Positions 41,171 through 48,172 of a DNA stretch of 64,000 bases are shown piece by piece (position 1 is the stretch's first letter; every line of letters begins with the position of its first letter). Position numbers and translations under genes: made by a program. Under the pieces are notes generated by a model. It worked only from the letters and a program-made list of their open reading frames with translations, did not search any database and was not told the DNA's origin. Source of the DNA: Candidatus Kapaibacterium sp. (GTDB lineage: Bacteria > Bacteroidota > Ignavibacteria > Kapaibacteriales > UBA2268); contig JAMLHE010000001.1 of the NCBI GenBank assembly GCA_023957315.1, positions 186,001 to 250,000 of the forward strand. Reading direction: 5' to 3'.

Positions 41171-41242
41171 AAGAGTGGACTAAACTAAATAAAGTTTTTG
41201 CTTTCACTAAACATTTTTTTCTTAATATATATGGGAGCCTCT

Positions 41243-41674
41243 ATGAAATCATTAAAAATCTTTGCAGCAGTAATTACTATGGTACTTGCTGTGGGCGTAT
41301 TCTATGCGAATGCTTGCGATAATTCGAAATCGAAAACAAAAGCAGGCGTCGAAAACTCAGTCGAAATGAAGAAAGTATCCGGTAAAGACGGCTGCTGCTC
41401 AGATAAGACTGTGAAAACAGCAGCTAAAAGCGACGGTTGTTGCTCAAGCAAGACTGTGAAAACAGCCGCTAAAAGTGACGGATGTTGCTCAAGTAAGACA
41501 GTGAAAACTGCCGGTGTTGAAGGTAGCTGCTCAAGCAAGACTGTAAAAACTGCTGCTAACGAATGTAGCACTAAATCAGCTTGCTCAACTGAGAAAGTTA
41601 AACTTGAAGCTAAAAACGAAGCTGTTGAAGCTAACTTGAATACTGCTGAAATCGTAACTCCTGAAACAAAATAA
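41243..41674 (+). CDS. Small exported protein with Cys-Cys tandem repeats
   Basis: 143 residues from the ATG at 41243, which follows GGGAGCC. The longer ORF from 41198 adds 15 residues across the promoter leader. A signal peptide (KSLKIFAAVITMVLAVGVFYANA) is followed directly by Cys. Residues about 47-115 are four to five tandem copies of a 15-17-residue unit with core GCCSSKTVKTAAKSD: three with Cys-Cys, then degenerate copies with one Cys (GSCSSKTVKTA, ECSTKSACSTEKVK). The tail is acidic. The vicinal Cys pairs at regular spacing suggest metal or redox chemistry outside the cytoplasm, but I recognise no family. The unit is repeated at DNA level with synonymous changes. A GAAA-loop terminator follows the gene. 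Confidence 0.75.
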   Translation: MKSLKIFAAVITMVLAVGVFYANACDNSKSKTKAGVENSVEMKKVSGKDGCCSDKTVKTAAKSDGCCSSKTVKTAAKSDGCCSSKTVKTAGVEGSCSSKTVKTAANECSTKSACSTEKVKLEAKNEAVEANLNTAEIVTPETK

Positions 41675-44386: not shown

Positions 44387-44394
44387 AATAATTT

Positions 44395-44430
44395 GAGATT
44401 TTTTTGCCATTGTTGTGTCTTTATATATAG
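44395..44430 (+). promoter_or_regulatory. Promoter-like element of the sigma/anti-sigma operon
   Basis: GAGAT, spacer TTTTTTGCCATTGTT (15 bases), GTGTC, then TTTATATATAGAG. It is near-identical to the element at 10478 over TTTTTTGC, TTG, TGTGTCTTTAT and ATA. It lies inside the N-terminal extension of the longest ORF, so the start at ATG 44438 is preferred. Confidence 0.5.
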
Positions 44431-44437
44431 AGAGGGT

Positions 44438-45574
44438 ATGTTATTTAAAAAAAGTTATAAAATTTGTAAAAATGCTTTGCTATGTTCTTTGACATGGTGG
44501 TTGTTTCTTGCAATGTTGATTGTAATGGTGCTGATGAGTTGCGATGTTTGCGACATTGGCGACTCGGGTGGTAACCCTGAAAACCGAATTTACTTCACAT
44601 CATTGCCCGGCAATACCGATGAACCGTATGTTTATAGTATCAAGTATGACGGCACAGCAATGTTGGCTTTGGTCAAAAACGGGCTGATATTCTCGCCTCC
44701 TTCGACTAATGGATATATGGCAGTTTTATCTCGGGACACAAATACCGGAAATAAGATTTTATATTCGGTTGATTCGGAAGGAAAGTATTTTCAAAAAGTT
44801 GCCGAAGAGAGTTCATTATTCGATATAAACTATCCTATAATGTCGCCGGATGGAAAGAAAATTGCTTTCAACGGAGGGCAAAAGAGATTGTTTATCAGCA
44901 AATATGACGGAGCGTACGTTTTCGACTTAATTGACGACAATATTACGAGCAACACGATTCCGGCGTTTTCGCCAAATTCGAAAATGATAGCCTATTTCAA
45001 AAATGAGACAAATGGGAATTTGGTGCTGAAAGTAGTCAATGCTGAAGAAACGGGCTCAACTCAAGTTATATTTCAGACAATTATTTCAGAAACTTTAGTT
45101 GAACGCAGCGAAATTCATCCTGAATGGTTCTCTGACAACAATCGGATTGTGATATCGGTAAGCAACAATGGTGCTGAGAAGCTAAAAATCATTGACATAA
45201 GTTCAGGAAATATTCGTGAAATCCTAATCGAATCACCTTTGATAGGTTCGTCCGACCCTGCGATTTCAGCCGATGGAAACTTTGTGGCAGTATCGGGTAA
45301 AGACGGTAACATTTGGGTGATTGACATTTTGGACGATGATTACAGATTCTCGCGTATCACGGATGTTTTCGAAGGGGAAACTGCCAAGTCACCAACTTGG
45401 CTATCAAACGGAAAAAGTATAATGTACAATTTACAAACGAAATATGATAAAGTAAGCTATTCGACACTCTTTTTGACAAATATCAGTTATGACGGTACTT
45501 TAGTAAACAAAGAGACAACGTACGTGTTGGCGAATTCGGTAATAAAAGGTTTTTGGCAATCTCAAGGAAAATGA
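44438..45574 (+). CDS. PD40 beta-propeller lipoprotein, first gene of the sigma/anti-sigma operon
   Basis: A 378-residue protein from ATG 44438, preceded by GAGAGGG. A long hydrophobic signal ends in lipobox VLMSC (Cys about residue 35). The body shows TolB/PD40-type blades: YPIMSPDGKKIAFNGG, IPAFSPNSKMIAYFKN, HPEWFSDNNRIVISVS, DPAISADGNFVAVSGKDG and SPTWLSNGKSIMYNL, consistent with a six-bladed propeller. No enzymatic residues are seen; such propellers bind proteins or peptidoglycan partners. Its stop overlaps the ATG of the ECF sigma gene, so the two are translationally coupled. An envelope sensor or accessory role for the signalling pair is inference. Confidence 0.8.
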   Translation: MLFKKSYKICKNALLCSLTWWLFLAMLIVMVLMSCDVCDIGDSGGNPENRIYFTSLPGNTDEPYVYSIKYDGTAMLALVKNGLIFSPPSTNGYMAVLSRDTNTGNKILYSVDSEGKYFQKVAEESSLFDINYPIMSPDGKKIAFNGGQKRLFISKYDGAYVFDLIDDNITSNTIPAFSPNSKMIAYFKNETNGNLVLKVVNAEETGSTQVIFQTIISETLVERSEIHPEWFSDNNRIVISVSNNGAEKLKIIDISSGNIREILIESPLIGSSDPAISADGNFVAVSGKDGNIWVIDILDDDYRFSRITDVFEGETAKSPTWLSNGKSIMYNLQTKYDKVSYSTLFLTNISYDGTLVNKETTYVLANSVIKGFWQSQGK

Positions 45575-46140
45575 TGAAATTGAATTTCAAACAAATGGAA
45601 GATTCAGAACTTATAAGCTTGTTGTTTACAACCAAGCATAAGGACGCTGCATTTGCTGAAATTTACGAACGATATTCACGAAGAGTTTATGCCTATTGCA
45701 AAAAGATGCTTCATTACAATGTTGAAGAAGCTAACGATGTTTTTCAGGATGTGTTCATTAGATTCTATAATTCGATAAACAAAAATCATTATTACGGAAA
45801 TCTTCAGAACTTTTTGTTGACAATTGCAAGAAATTTATGTCTGAATCAAATCAGAGACAAGAAAAACCACGTGCCCTTAGACGAAGCAATAATGGTTGAA
45901 GGACGTTCGGAATATGATTCTTATGAATTGAAAGAACTGCTAAACAAAGCATCAAATATGTTAGAAATTGAATATAAAGAAGTTTTTATACTGAGAATGT
46001 ATGATGGATTGGAATACGAAGAGATTGCAGAAATTATCGGCGAAAAAGCCGCAACGGTAAGAAGCAGAGTTTGGAGAGCGAAAGAAAGAATCAAAGTGAT
46101 TTTACAGAAGTATTTCGATGAATATGAATTTAATAAATAA
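45571..46140 (+). CDS. ECF-type RNA polymerase sigma factor
   Basis: A 189-residue group 4 sigma factor. Region 2 spans about 15-80 (FAEIYERYSRRVYAYCKKML, EEANDVFQDVFIRFYNSI with the usual DxxQDxF-like core, and FLLTIARNLCLNQIRD). Region 4 spans about 125-180 (YKEVFILRMYDGLEYEEIAEIIGEKAATVRSRVWRAKERI), a clear helix-turn-helix. No C-terminal SnoaL or other sensor extension is present. Start candidates are the adjacent ATG codons 45571 and 45574 following AAGGA; both overlap the lipoprotein stop. The next gene is a predicted membrane anti-sigma protein, the usual arrangement for ECF control. It may recognise the element at 44395 (autoregulation), which is inference. Confidence 0.93.
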   Translation: MMKLNFKQMEDSELISLLFTTKHKDAAFAEIYERYSRRVYAYCKKMLHYNVEEANDVFQDVFIRFYNSINKNHYYGNLQNFLLTIARNLCLNQIRDKKNHVPLDEAIMVEGRSEYDSYELKELLNKASNMLEIEYKEVFILRMYDGLEYEEIAEIIGEKAATVRSRVWRAKERIKVILQKYFDEYEFNK

Positions 46141-46160: not shown

Positions 46161-47465
46161 ATGTCTTATGCAAAAATGATACACGATTACATTGACGGTG
46201 GCTTAGACAGCACGAACGAGCAGGCTATGTTCGCATTGCTGTCCCAAAGTGATGATTTGAGGCACGAATTCAATTCGCAATTCAAAATGCACCTCGCTGC
46301 TCAAGAGGATATGTCGCAAATTGCTCCACCAATCCATGTTACAAATGCAATATTTGCAGGGCTCGGAATGGCTATTCCGGCAAATACGGTGCAATCGCCA
46401 ACCAGCAGCATAAAGCGTTTCTTGAACAGGTTCGCCCCTGCTATCCTCTTGCTACTGTTCTTCGGAGCAATGGGCTGGGGTTTGCTCGAATATCAAAAAA
46501 ACCGAGACCTCGAATCTCAATTGGCTTCGTCAAACGGCAACGCATCTATTGGGAATTCATCAAATAATATTCCGATGATGTCCTCATTCAGCGATGATGA
46601 TGTAGCTGCAAACGGCAGCAATTCTACCGGGAATGCCGTCAATAATGATGCGTCCGTTAATTCAGCTACCTCGGGAAACTCGAATAATGCAAACCGAAAT
46701 AATGCTAATAGTTTTTACAATTCACGTGCTAATTCAAACTCGGGAATAAGCACCCAAAACGGTCAAAATGATTATGATTTGGCTTCGGGAAATTTGCAAA
46801 ATAGCAGAACTTCCGGCATGAATAATCATATCGAAGGCTCAAGGATTCAATCTGACAAGAATTTTGCAAGAAATGCGATGTTCGGTTCGAGTCATAATTC
46901 AAATACTTCATCGCAATTTGGCAATTCGATTTCGATGAATGGTGGATTGGGCAATTTCCAATTGATTTCGGTAAATTCGATGATTGGTAGTAAAGTTCAA
47001 ATTCAAGTGAGCACTTTACAATCACCTTTCACTTCGCCATCATTTGAAAATTCCAATTTGCAAAGCCCGAATGGAAGCTGGTCAGGTGCATTTTTGTATT
47101 CCATTAATGATTTTAGTACTATTGGTTTAGTAGTTGGTGTGGAAAGCTTCAACCAAGATTTCAAGACATCCGATGGATTGCATTATTTACAAAGCCCTGA
47201 ATTGCTTTGGTTCGCTGCAAGTTATCGCTATACAGCAAAAGATTTGTTTGTGCCACACATTTTCTATCCTTACGCTCAATTAAGTGCCGGTGGGACAAGT
47301 GTCGGACCAATTACCAAAGGACAAGTCGGTGTTATCTGGAATGTATTTTCTACAGTTAATTTGAACTTAGGTGCTGAAGTAGGATATTTATTTTACAATG
47401 TAAATGGCAATATTCATAATTCAAGCAAAATTGGATTTACAAGCGGAGTTACAATAGGATTTTGA
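46161..47465 (+). CDS. Predicted dual membrane-spanning anti-sigma factor (Dma-like) with outer-membrane barrel domain
   Basis: 434 residues in four visible parts. Residues 1-85 are a small helical, soluble head without Cys (IHDYIDGGLDSTNEQAMFALL), resembling anti-sigma heads without zinc. A transmembrane helix lies at about 92-109 (FAPAILLLLFFGAMGWGLL), preceded by KRFLNR, which predicts a cytoplasmic N-terminus. About 120-258 is a disordered Asn/Ser/Gly-rich linker. About 262-434 has alternating amphipathic strands ending in Phe (SGVTIGF), the hallmark of an outer-membrane beta-barrel of about eight strands. A single chain would therefore cross the inner membrane, span the periplasm and insert in the outer membrane, as described for Dma proteins of Bacteroides thetaiotaomicron. 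It follows an ECF sigma gene by 20 bases. Function as an anti-sigma factor is inferred from context and layout. The next gene overlaps its stop. Confidence 0.72.
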   Translation: MSYAKMIHDYIDGGLDSTNEQAMFALLSQSDDLRHEFNSQFKMHLAAQEDMSQIAPPIHVTNAIFAGLGMAIPANTVQSPTSSIKRFLNRFAPAILLLLFFGAMGWGLLEYQKNRDLESQLASSNGNASIGNSSNNIPMMSSFSDDDVAANGSNSTGNAVNNDASVNSATSGNSNNANRNNANSFYNSRANSNSGISTQNGQNDYDLASGNLQNSRTSGMNNHIEGSRIQSDKNFARNAMFGSSHNSNTSSQFGNSISMNGGLGNFQLISVNSMIGSKVQIQVSTLQSPFTSPSFENSNLQSPNGSWSGAFLYSINDFSTIGLVVGVESFNQDFKTSDGLHYLQSPELLWFAASYRYTAKDLFVPHIFYPYAQLSAGGTSVGPITKGQVGVIWNVFSTVNLNLGAEVGYLFYNVNGNIHNSSKIGFTSGVTIGF

Positions 47466-48172
47466 TACATAGTTTCTTATACGGCGCATTCGCAACCTTT
47501 TTAGCTTTGTCAGTTATAGCTATTGGTGGTTGTGAATGTGTCCCCGATATTACAACGCCAAAGGAAATTACTCCCGAAAACTCTTCGTTTGTGAGAATTA
47601 TTAACGCTTTGCCGGACCATCCGGAAATCGAATTGGAAAGCAACGATATTAAGATTAGCACTATTGCCTATTATTCCGGTTCGGATTCATCGCTATATCA
47701 AAAATTTCATGCCGGAAATTCCTTCATTCGAATCAAATCTATAACTCGAAATCAAGTAATTGCCAATCAAGCATACTTGCTCACAAGAGACAAACAATAT
47801 TCACTCATTTCATACGGACGCGGCAGTTTAGCCTTGACGGCATTGATTGAAGATGAATTGGAATTATTGCAAACGGGAACATCGGGCATAAGATTGTTGA
47901 ATTTCACTGACGGAATGAGCGAATTGACCTTTTCGCTCACCGGTTTGAACAATCATGAGCAATCAATTGCATATTCGAGCTATTCCGAATTCATCAAAAT
48001 CCAAAGCGGAGATTACATAGTAAAAATTCGTGATGGAGCAGGAAATGAAATTGCCACAGAAAACATAAAAATAGCCCCGGGAATAAATTATGATTTAATT
48101 TCCAAGGGCTACATTTCGGGAACGTCAAAAAATACTTCATTGCAATTAATAGCAATCAAAAAACCAAATTAG
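47462..48172 (+). CDS. DUF4397-like lipoprotein, last gene of the sigma/anti-sigma operon
   Basis: A 236-residue lipoprotein whose signal ends in lipobox IGGC (Cys24; ALSVIAIGGCECVPD). The body has the DUF4397 pattern: FVRIINALPDHPEIELESNDIKI at the front, then STIAYYSGSDSSLYQKFHAGNSFIRIK, DKQYSLISYGR, GIRLLNFTDGM, and a second half-repeat ending YLI/YDLISKGY-like. DUF4397 proteins are beta-sandwich envelope proteins of unknown function. Translation starts at TTG 47462, whose bases overlap the stop of the upstream gene (TTGA), so synthesis is coupled to the anti-sigma/barrel protein. A partner or ligand of the outer-membrane domain is a reasonable guess, not shown. Confidence 0.75.
   Translation: MIHSFLYGAFATFLALSVIAIGGCECVPDITTPKEITPENSSFVRIINALPDHPEIELESNDIKISTIAYYSGSDSSLYQKFHAGNSFIRIKSITRNQVIANQAYLLTRDKQYSLISYGRGSLALTALIEDELELLQTGTSGIRLLNFTDGMSELTFSLTGLNNHEQSIAYSSYSEFIKIQSGDYIVKIRDGAGNEIATENIKIAPGINYDLISKGYISGTSKNTSLQLIAIKKPN

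Follow-up and report, generated by a model that had tools for sequence, protein, structure and literature searches.

Dma proteins are anti-sigma factors in which an anti-sigma head, a transmembrane helix, a disordered tether and a barrel follow one another; they are encoded beside an ECF21 sigma factor and have been reported solely from Bacteroidota (PMC13088901). The same layout is found in Reo from P. vulgatus, which responds to envelope-active toxins (PMC9308784, PMC13114119). Descriptions of this dual-membrane layout have so far come from gut Bacteroides relatives, in which vesiculation, colonization and toxin defense are under its control. Anti-sigma domains of class I (ASDI) hold their sigma factor through a dual interface, with helix 4 on sigma region 2 and helix 1 on sigma region 4 (PMC7406223).

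The gene described here, P0001, lies in a window of 64,000 nucleotides (the whole stretch of DNA that was analyzed) from Candidatus Kapaibacterium sp. Its product is best read as a single-chain membrane-bound anti-sigma factor, whose class I head would clamp the ECF sigma factor encoded upstream and whose C-terminal barrel would be seated in the outer membrane as a sensor, with release of the sigma factor by proteolysis. A probability of about 0.8 is assigned to this reading, in which insertion, sensing, release and regulon are the parts that we infer, while the pairing of head and sigma factor, the single transmembrane helix, the constraint on tether length, the barrel-like domain and the conserved module are backed by computation. 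Literature searches returned no earlier description of a Kapabacteria protein or an RseA-barrel protein of this kind.

The P0001 locus

The features of the locus are collected in Table 1. The sigma factor gene ends at position 46140, leaving a gap of 20 nt before the start of P0001, in agreement with the preliminary description of this DNA, which had placed P0001 after an ECF sigma factor gene. The outer genes overlap their neighbors: the stop codon of the upstream lipoprotein gene overlaps the start of the sigma factor gene (ATGA), and the start of the DUF4397 lipoprotein gene overlaps the stop codon of P0001. The product of the upstream lipoprotein gene also matches the TolB model TIGR02800 (E 7e-17), at a score far below the cut-off of that model. 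Further upstream, at 41198-41674 (+), the window encodes a small protein that looks secreted and contains repeats of a Cys-rich unit (DGCCSSKTVKTAAKS).

Table 1. Genes and protein segments of the P0001 locus, in window positions
Feature	Position	Strand	Basis
TolB-like beta-propeller (PD40) lipoprotein gene	44393..45574	+	PF07676 E 5.6e-10; lipobox LMSC; start codon uncertain
ECF sigma factor, predicted cognate partner, 189 aa from ATG 45571	45571..46140	+	Sigma70_r2 and Sigma70_r4_2 over Pfam cut-offs; coevolves with P0001 head
P0001, Dma-like anti-sigma factor gene	46161..47465	+	434 aa plus stop, C-terminal end ...GVTIGF
Predicted cytoplasmic class I anti-sigma head, residues 1-72	46161..46376	+	motifs DGxLD, LFxxLAxNxELRxE, TxxIFxxLG; RseA matches; sigma coupling
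Predicted single transmembrane helix, residues ~91-112	46431..46496	+	hydropathy
Asn/Ser-rich tether, residues 113-275	46497..46985	+	composition
Eight-strand outer-membrane-barrel-like domain, residues 276-434, C-terminal Phe	46986..47462	+	strand ladders, hydropathy alternation, fold matches
DUF4397 lipoprotein gene, third gene of module	47462..48172	+	PF14344 E 2e-15; lipobox IGGC

P0001 itself matches no Pfam family. The gene is nonetheless real and under purifying selection: its orthologues L044 and L045 keep the reading frame, with 91 and 85% identity and dN/dS values of 0.14-0.17, and the same comparison reveals the head as the most constrained part of the protein and the barrel as the least. 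The contig holding L045 (JAGXRP010000075.1) is titled Desulfobulbaceae, although by sequence it falls in the Kapabacteria genus of the window, and the label of this metagenome-assembled genome is probably wrong.

Distribution of the family

The genome of the window holds seven clear systems with the layout of P0001, together with a divergent eighth (L100:1979-3295 (+), in C12), whose sigma factor is sister to all other linked sigma factors of the order. With a six-member profile, the family was found in 40/40 relatives and, more widely, in 117/123 genomes representing 50/51 genera of the order. An unusual expansion is present in the 7.9-Mb genome G038 of the same order, with 35 family matches, some of them partial. 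In a phylum-wide sample, matches were nearly confined to the order, at a sensitivity limited by the scoring of only four candidates per genome.

Collected from 78 genomes, 184 unique full-length members were available for comparison, and 183 of them have an ECF sigma factor gene directly upstream. The layout of P0001 is common to all of these relatives and is no chance product. Directly downstream, a lipoprotein-like ORF occurs in 95/181 relatives as against 19/273 control ORFs (Fisher p ~3e-28), counted by a relaxed lipobox rule that was applied equally to both sets. The module of sigma factor, anti-sigma factor and lipoprotein is thus conserved. The lipoprotein genes that follow the anti-sigma factor gene in about half of the loci are diverse, and their products are possible partners or outputs of the barrel.

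The head domain and its pairing with the sigma factor

The head of P0001 is, by its sequence, a class I anti-sigma domain of the RseA type. RseA_N is matched at E<=0.01 in 3/54 family members, and the head of the paralogue L189 passes the Pfam cut-off for this family, with P0001 alone remaining below the threshold. Compared with the PDB, the head profile finds RseA (1or7_C) as its best match (E 0.013), before DdvA (0.066) and RsiW (0.94). A low-confidence model places four helices at residues 3-11, 17-27, 31-49, and 62-67. The preliminary description had remarked that the head lacks a zinc-binding motif, and this extends to the whole family: HxxxCxxC is absent from the heads of all 183 relatives, which led to the rejection of a zinc anti-sigma (ZAS) reading of P0001.

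The proposed partnership between this head and the upstream ECF sigma factor is supported by linkage and by residue coevolution. In a pairwise coupling analysis that covered 183 pairs of sigma factor and head, 11 inter-protein residue pairs reached Z>5, the strongest of which (Z 11.7) exceeds even the top within-protein pair (Z 8.4). When partners were shuffled within genomes, a procedure that preserves phylogeny and composition, no pair with Z>5 was obtained in either of two runs, and control pairings of the sigma factor with equal-sized blocks of the barrel gave only 1-2 such pairs (top Z 6.4). The strongest couplings link head helix 4 (P57, T61, M70) to sigma region 2 (D25, Y32, Y40, Y66), while head residues 28-50 couple mostly to sigma region 4 (E132, K136, M143, Y144, S165, W168), with exceptions to this pattern such as the pair S30-I31. 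For sigma region 4, helices 2-3 provide more of the contacts than helix 1, where L15-E148 reaches only Z 4.2.

The same data bear on a very different possibility, namely that P0001 is an outer-membrane barrel protein whose N-terminal anchor is unusual, and that it shares a transcript with the sigma factor but does not inhibit it. Some outer-membrane proteins are indeed regulated by sigma factors, and the C-terminal domain of P0001 is OmpX-like, yet both the RseA-type head and the strong, partner-specific coevolution of head and sigma factor, in the pattern of a class I interface, speak against it, and we consider this explanation extremely improbable.

The transmembrane helix and the tether

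P0001 contains a sole strong hydrophobic segment, FAPAILLLLFFGAMGWGLL (residues 91-109, KD 2.07), with a net charge of +3 before and -1 after it, which bears out the single transmembrane helix with a positive-inside flank proposed in the preliminary description. Throughout the family there is likewise one hydrophobic segment near residue 98 (median KD 2.1), preceded by more positive charge than follows it.

The linker beyond this helix had been described as about 140 residues rich in Asn and Ser; the composition is as described (42% Asn+Ser), but the length from the end of the helix to the first strand is rather ~163-168 aa. Among the relatives, the same distance ranges from 107 to 196 aa, with a median of 139, and is never below 107, even though the tether shows hardly any conservation of sequence (14% pairwise identity). 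At ~0.34 nm per residue when fully extended, even the shortest tether of 107 aa would measure ~36 nm, enough to cross the periplasm.

The C-terminal barrel-like domain

The C-terminal domain had been proposed to begin at residue 262 and to form a closed barrel ending in Phe. Its strands begin instead near residue 276, and the final residues are, as stated, ...GVTIGF; across the family, 169/183 members end in F, L, Y or W. Although P0001 itself has no match to PF13505 (OMP_b-brl), 5/54 family members do. The alternation of hydropathy along the eight strands exceeds that of 500/500 shuffles, and pseudo-likelihood coupling analysis reveals antiparallel ladders between neighboring strands. Pairs of neighboring strands outscore non-neighbors with a Mann-Whitney p of 2.6e-4, a value that is optimistic because the couplings were known when the limits of the strands were set. 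The pair that would close the barrel, between strands 1 and 8, comes only 9th among 28 and scores below the parallel-ladder control, and mean-field analysis shows evident hairpins but no clear closure, so that barrel closure is plausible but not demonstrated.

Structure prediction with AlphaFold2, using three near-identical sequences, gave a pLDDT of 31.6 for the full-length protein and 46.1 for the barrel alone. The latter model independently puts eight strands at matching positions, and membrane beta-barrels, among them FadL, OmpW, OmpX and OmpA, account for every one of its 50 best fold matches, a result to be read with the caution that a pLDDT of 46 demands.

These low confidence values, together with the unproven strand closure and the absence of any solved outer-membrane barrel among the matches of the barrel profile to PDB sequences, would also suit a conventional anti-sigma factor with a single membrane pass, in which a periplasmic beta-sandwich or another soluble sensor would form the C-terminal domain and the chain would never reach the outer membrane. 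A soluble beta-sandwich had been named from the start as the outcome that would count against a barrel, and no such fold was found among the 50 best matches of the model. The PF13505 matches of other members, the strong dyad alternation, the aromatic or hydrophobic C-terminal residue, the short beta2-beta3 and beta6-beta7 turns and the tether floor of 107 aa all speak for a barrel, and make a soluble sensor improbable.

Relation to the Dma and Reo proteins

The nearest named relatives of the lineage are HGW-Ignavibacteriae-1 and Ca. Kapaibacterium, the latter placed by NCBI in Bacteroidota and the former still filed under Ignavibacteriota; NigD-bearing Bacteroidales-like genomes are grouped in the same phylum as the lineage of P0001. 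Measured on fructose-bisphosphatase, HGW-Ignavibacteriae-1 and the genome labelled Desulfobulbaceae each reach 95% and Ca. Kapaibacterium 64%. This lineage is a relative of Kapabacteria, outside Bacteroidia and within Bacteroidota by current taxonomy. The preliminary description had seen in it a non-Bacteroides FCB lineage, which is right in that it lies outside Bacteroidia, yet by NCBI it still belongs to Bacteroidota, and the published restriction of Dma proteins to this phylum is therefore not contradicted.

P0001 shares with the Dma proteins an N-terminal sigma-binding domain (of another head type), one transmembrane helix, a long tether and occurrence in Bacteroidota. For the comparison of sequences, four proteins from NigD-bearing genomes served as stand-ins (L184 and L185, both beside NigD, L181 and L170), assigned by their layout and NigD neighbors and used in place of the published sequences. 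One of them, L170:1766-3406 (-) from the Bacteroidaceae-like genome G417, has an ECF sigma factor, a transmembrane helix, a tether and an OMP_b-brl barrel fused in one 547-aa ORF, and is Dma3-like, since for Dma3, too, a sigma factor fused to the N-terminus has been described.

The preliminary description had called P0001 Dma-like and had suggested a profile search against Dma proteins. Against these Bacteroidaceae-type stand-ins, no similarity was found in either direction: the P0001-family profile has no match at E<=10 in four Bacteroidaceae-like genomes, the stand-in profile has none among the genomes listed of the order of P0001, and hhalign of the whole profiles gives an uninformative probability of 1.4. 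The Dma-like character is supported for the layout and the upstream ECF partner, whereas membership of the Dma family is not. The head is of a different type, and the sigma factors form two separate clades in the tree.

It may still be asked whether P0001 belongs to the Dma/Reo family of Bacteroides as a true member that has diverged, descended from a common ancestor in Bacteroidota, with a head that has diverged or been swapped. The same order of parts, the upstream ECF gene, the OMP_b-brl-type barrel and the lipoprotein neighbors are all consistent with such a descent, and grouping both sigma factor clades is not rejected by the AU test (p-AU 0.136). Descent from a Dma ancestor nevertheless seems unlikely, since the profiles miss each other, the heads differ in length and pattern, the sigma factors fall apart into their clades, and relatives of the head occur without a barrel in Ignavibacteria. 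Judged from its sequence, P0001 would work like a Dma, yet looks like a member of a separate, class-I-headed family.

Short relatives in Ignavibacteria and the origin of the layout

In Ignavibacteria genomes, the head profile matches only proteins of 151-165 aa (L358-L362), consisting of the head and a transmembrane helix and devoid of a barrel. An ECF sigma factor gene is located within a few genes in 4/5 of these loci, in one case with an intervening gene. Two of the heads contain a CxxC zinc-type motif. In four of the loci (L358-L361) the next gene looks, by eye, as if it encoded a lipoprotein with a TonB-C-like C-terminus.

The same head on barrel-less Ignavibacteria factors, and the different head of the Dma proteins, indicate that the P0001 family probably gained its barrel independently of the Bacteroides Dma. 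In the simplest reading, the Kapabacteria line added the tether and the barrel to a plain class I anti-sigma factor, and a head of another type served Bacteroidia for the same layout; the alternative is that a single ancestral Dma had its head swapped.

The independent gain can be extended to a more general view, on which we would place even odds. Single-chain dual-membrane anti-sigma factors would have arisen at least twice in Bacteroidota, and the class I factor of Kapabacteria, once fused to a tether and a barrel of its own, would have been duplicated into many partner-specific sensors. Each of these may report in cis whether its own barrel has been assembled, so that one protein would combine two components of the sigma-E pathway of E. 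coli, the inhibitor RseA and the signal from outer-membrane proteins.

Proposed mechanism of regulation

Under the preferred reading of P0001 as a tethered inhibitor, helix 4 of the head would grip sigma region 2, and its helices 1-3 would grip sigma region 4. A single helix would cross the inner membrane, the putatively disordered tether would span the periplasm, and the C-terminal eight-strand domain would fold into the outer membrane. The head would hold the sigma factor for as long as the chain is unbroken and the barrel in place. Misassembly of the barrel, damage to the outer membrane or a ligand of the loops could alter the chain and open it to proteolysis. The sigma factor would then be freed, most simply by regulated proteolysis of the unassembled or strained chain, and would transcribe an envelope regulon, to which its own operon and the neighboring lipoprotein genes probably belong. 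Two M50 site-2-type proteases are encoded in the genome, but such proteases are near universal and are weak evidence for proteolytic release.

In E. coli, the protease DegS reads the signal of unfolded outer-membrane proteins, and the fused, Phe-ended barrel of P0001 could act in cis as an unfolded-protein signal of this type. Through a tether to a barrel, the state of the outer membrane would be relayed over both membranes with no need for a diffusible intermediate. That the couplings are partner-specific among the many paralogues suggests that the systems of one genome work as parallel, insulated channels. The set of paralogues, the partner-specific coevolution and the barrel-less sister proteins make both the origin and the signaling logic of the family testable by chimeras.

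Comparison with known systems

FecR-type cell-surface signaling also couples the state of the outer membrane to an ECF sigma factor, as is proposed for P0001. FecR, however, uses a separate TonB-dependent transducer; this candidate was rejected on finding no FecR or STN match in P0001 or its three tested neighbors.

With RseA and other class I domains, the P0001 family has in common the head motifs and the four-helix pattern, and its couplings resemble the dual interface to sigma regions 2 and 4. The periplasmic part of RseA is a small domain that is sensed by the separate proteins RseB and DegS, and it does not continue into a barrel as the chain of P0001 does. The short anti-sigma factors from Ignavibacteria have the head and transmembrane helix of P0001, without its tether or barrel.

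Closest in layout are Dma1 and Dma2 from Bacteroides thetaiotaomicron and Reo from B. fragilis, which present the same order of parts, an adjacent ECF gene, a multi-gene operon and lipoproteins nearby. The Bacteroides-type stand-ins differ from P0001 in their head of ~50 aa with a W..L..EP.P..W motif, compared with a class I head of ~72 aa, and in their clear OMP_b-brl matches. In the P0001 family, the dual-membrane layout is found throughout an order of an environmental lineage, on a structurally understood RseA-type head and in multiple copies per genome. This order-wide occurrence on a different head suggests that tethering a sigma factor to an outer-membrane barrel has been repeatedly favored.
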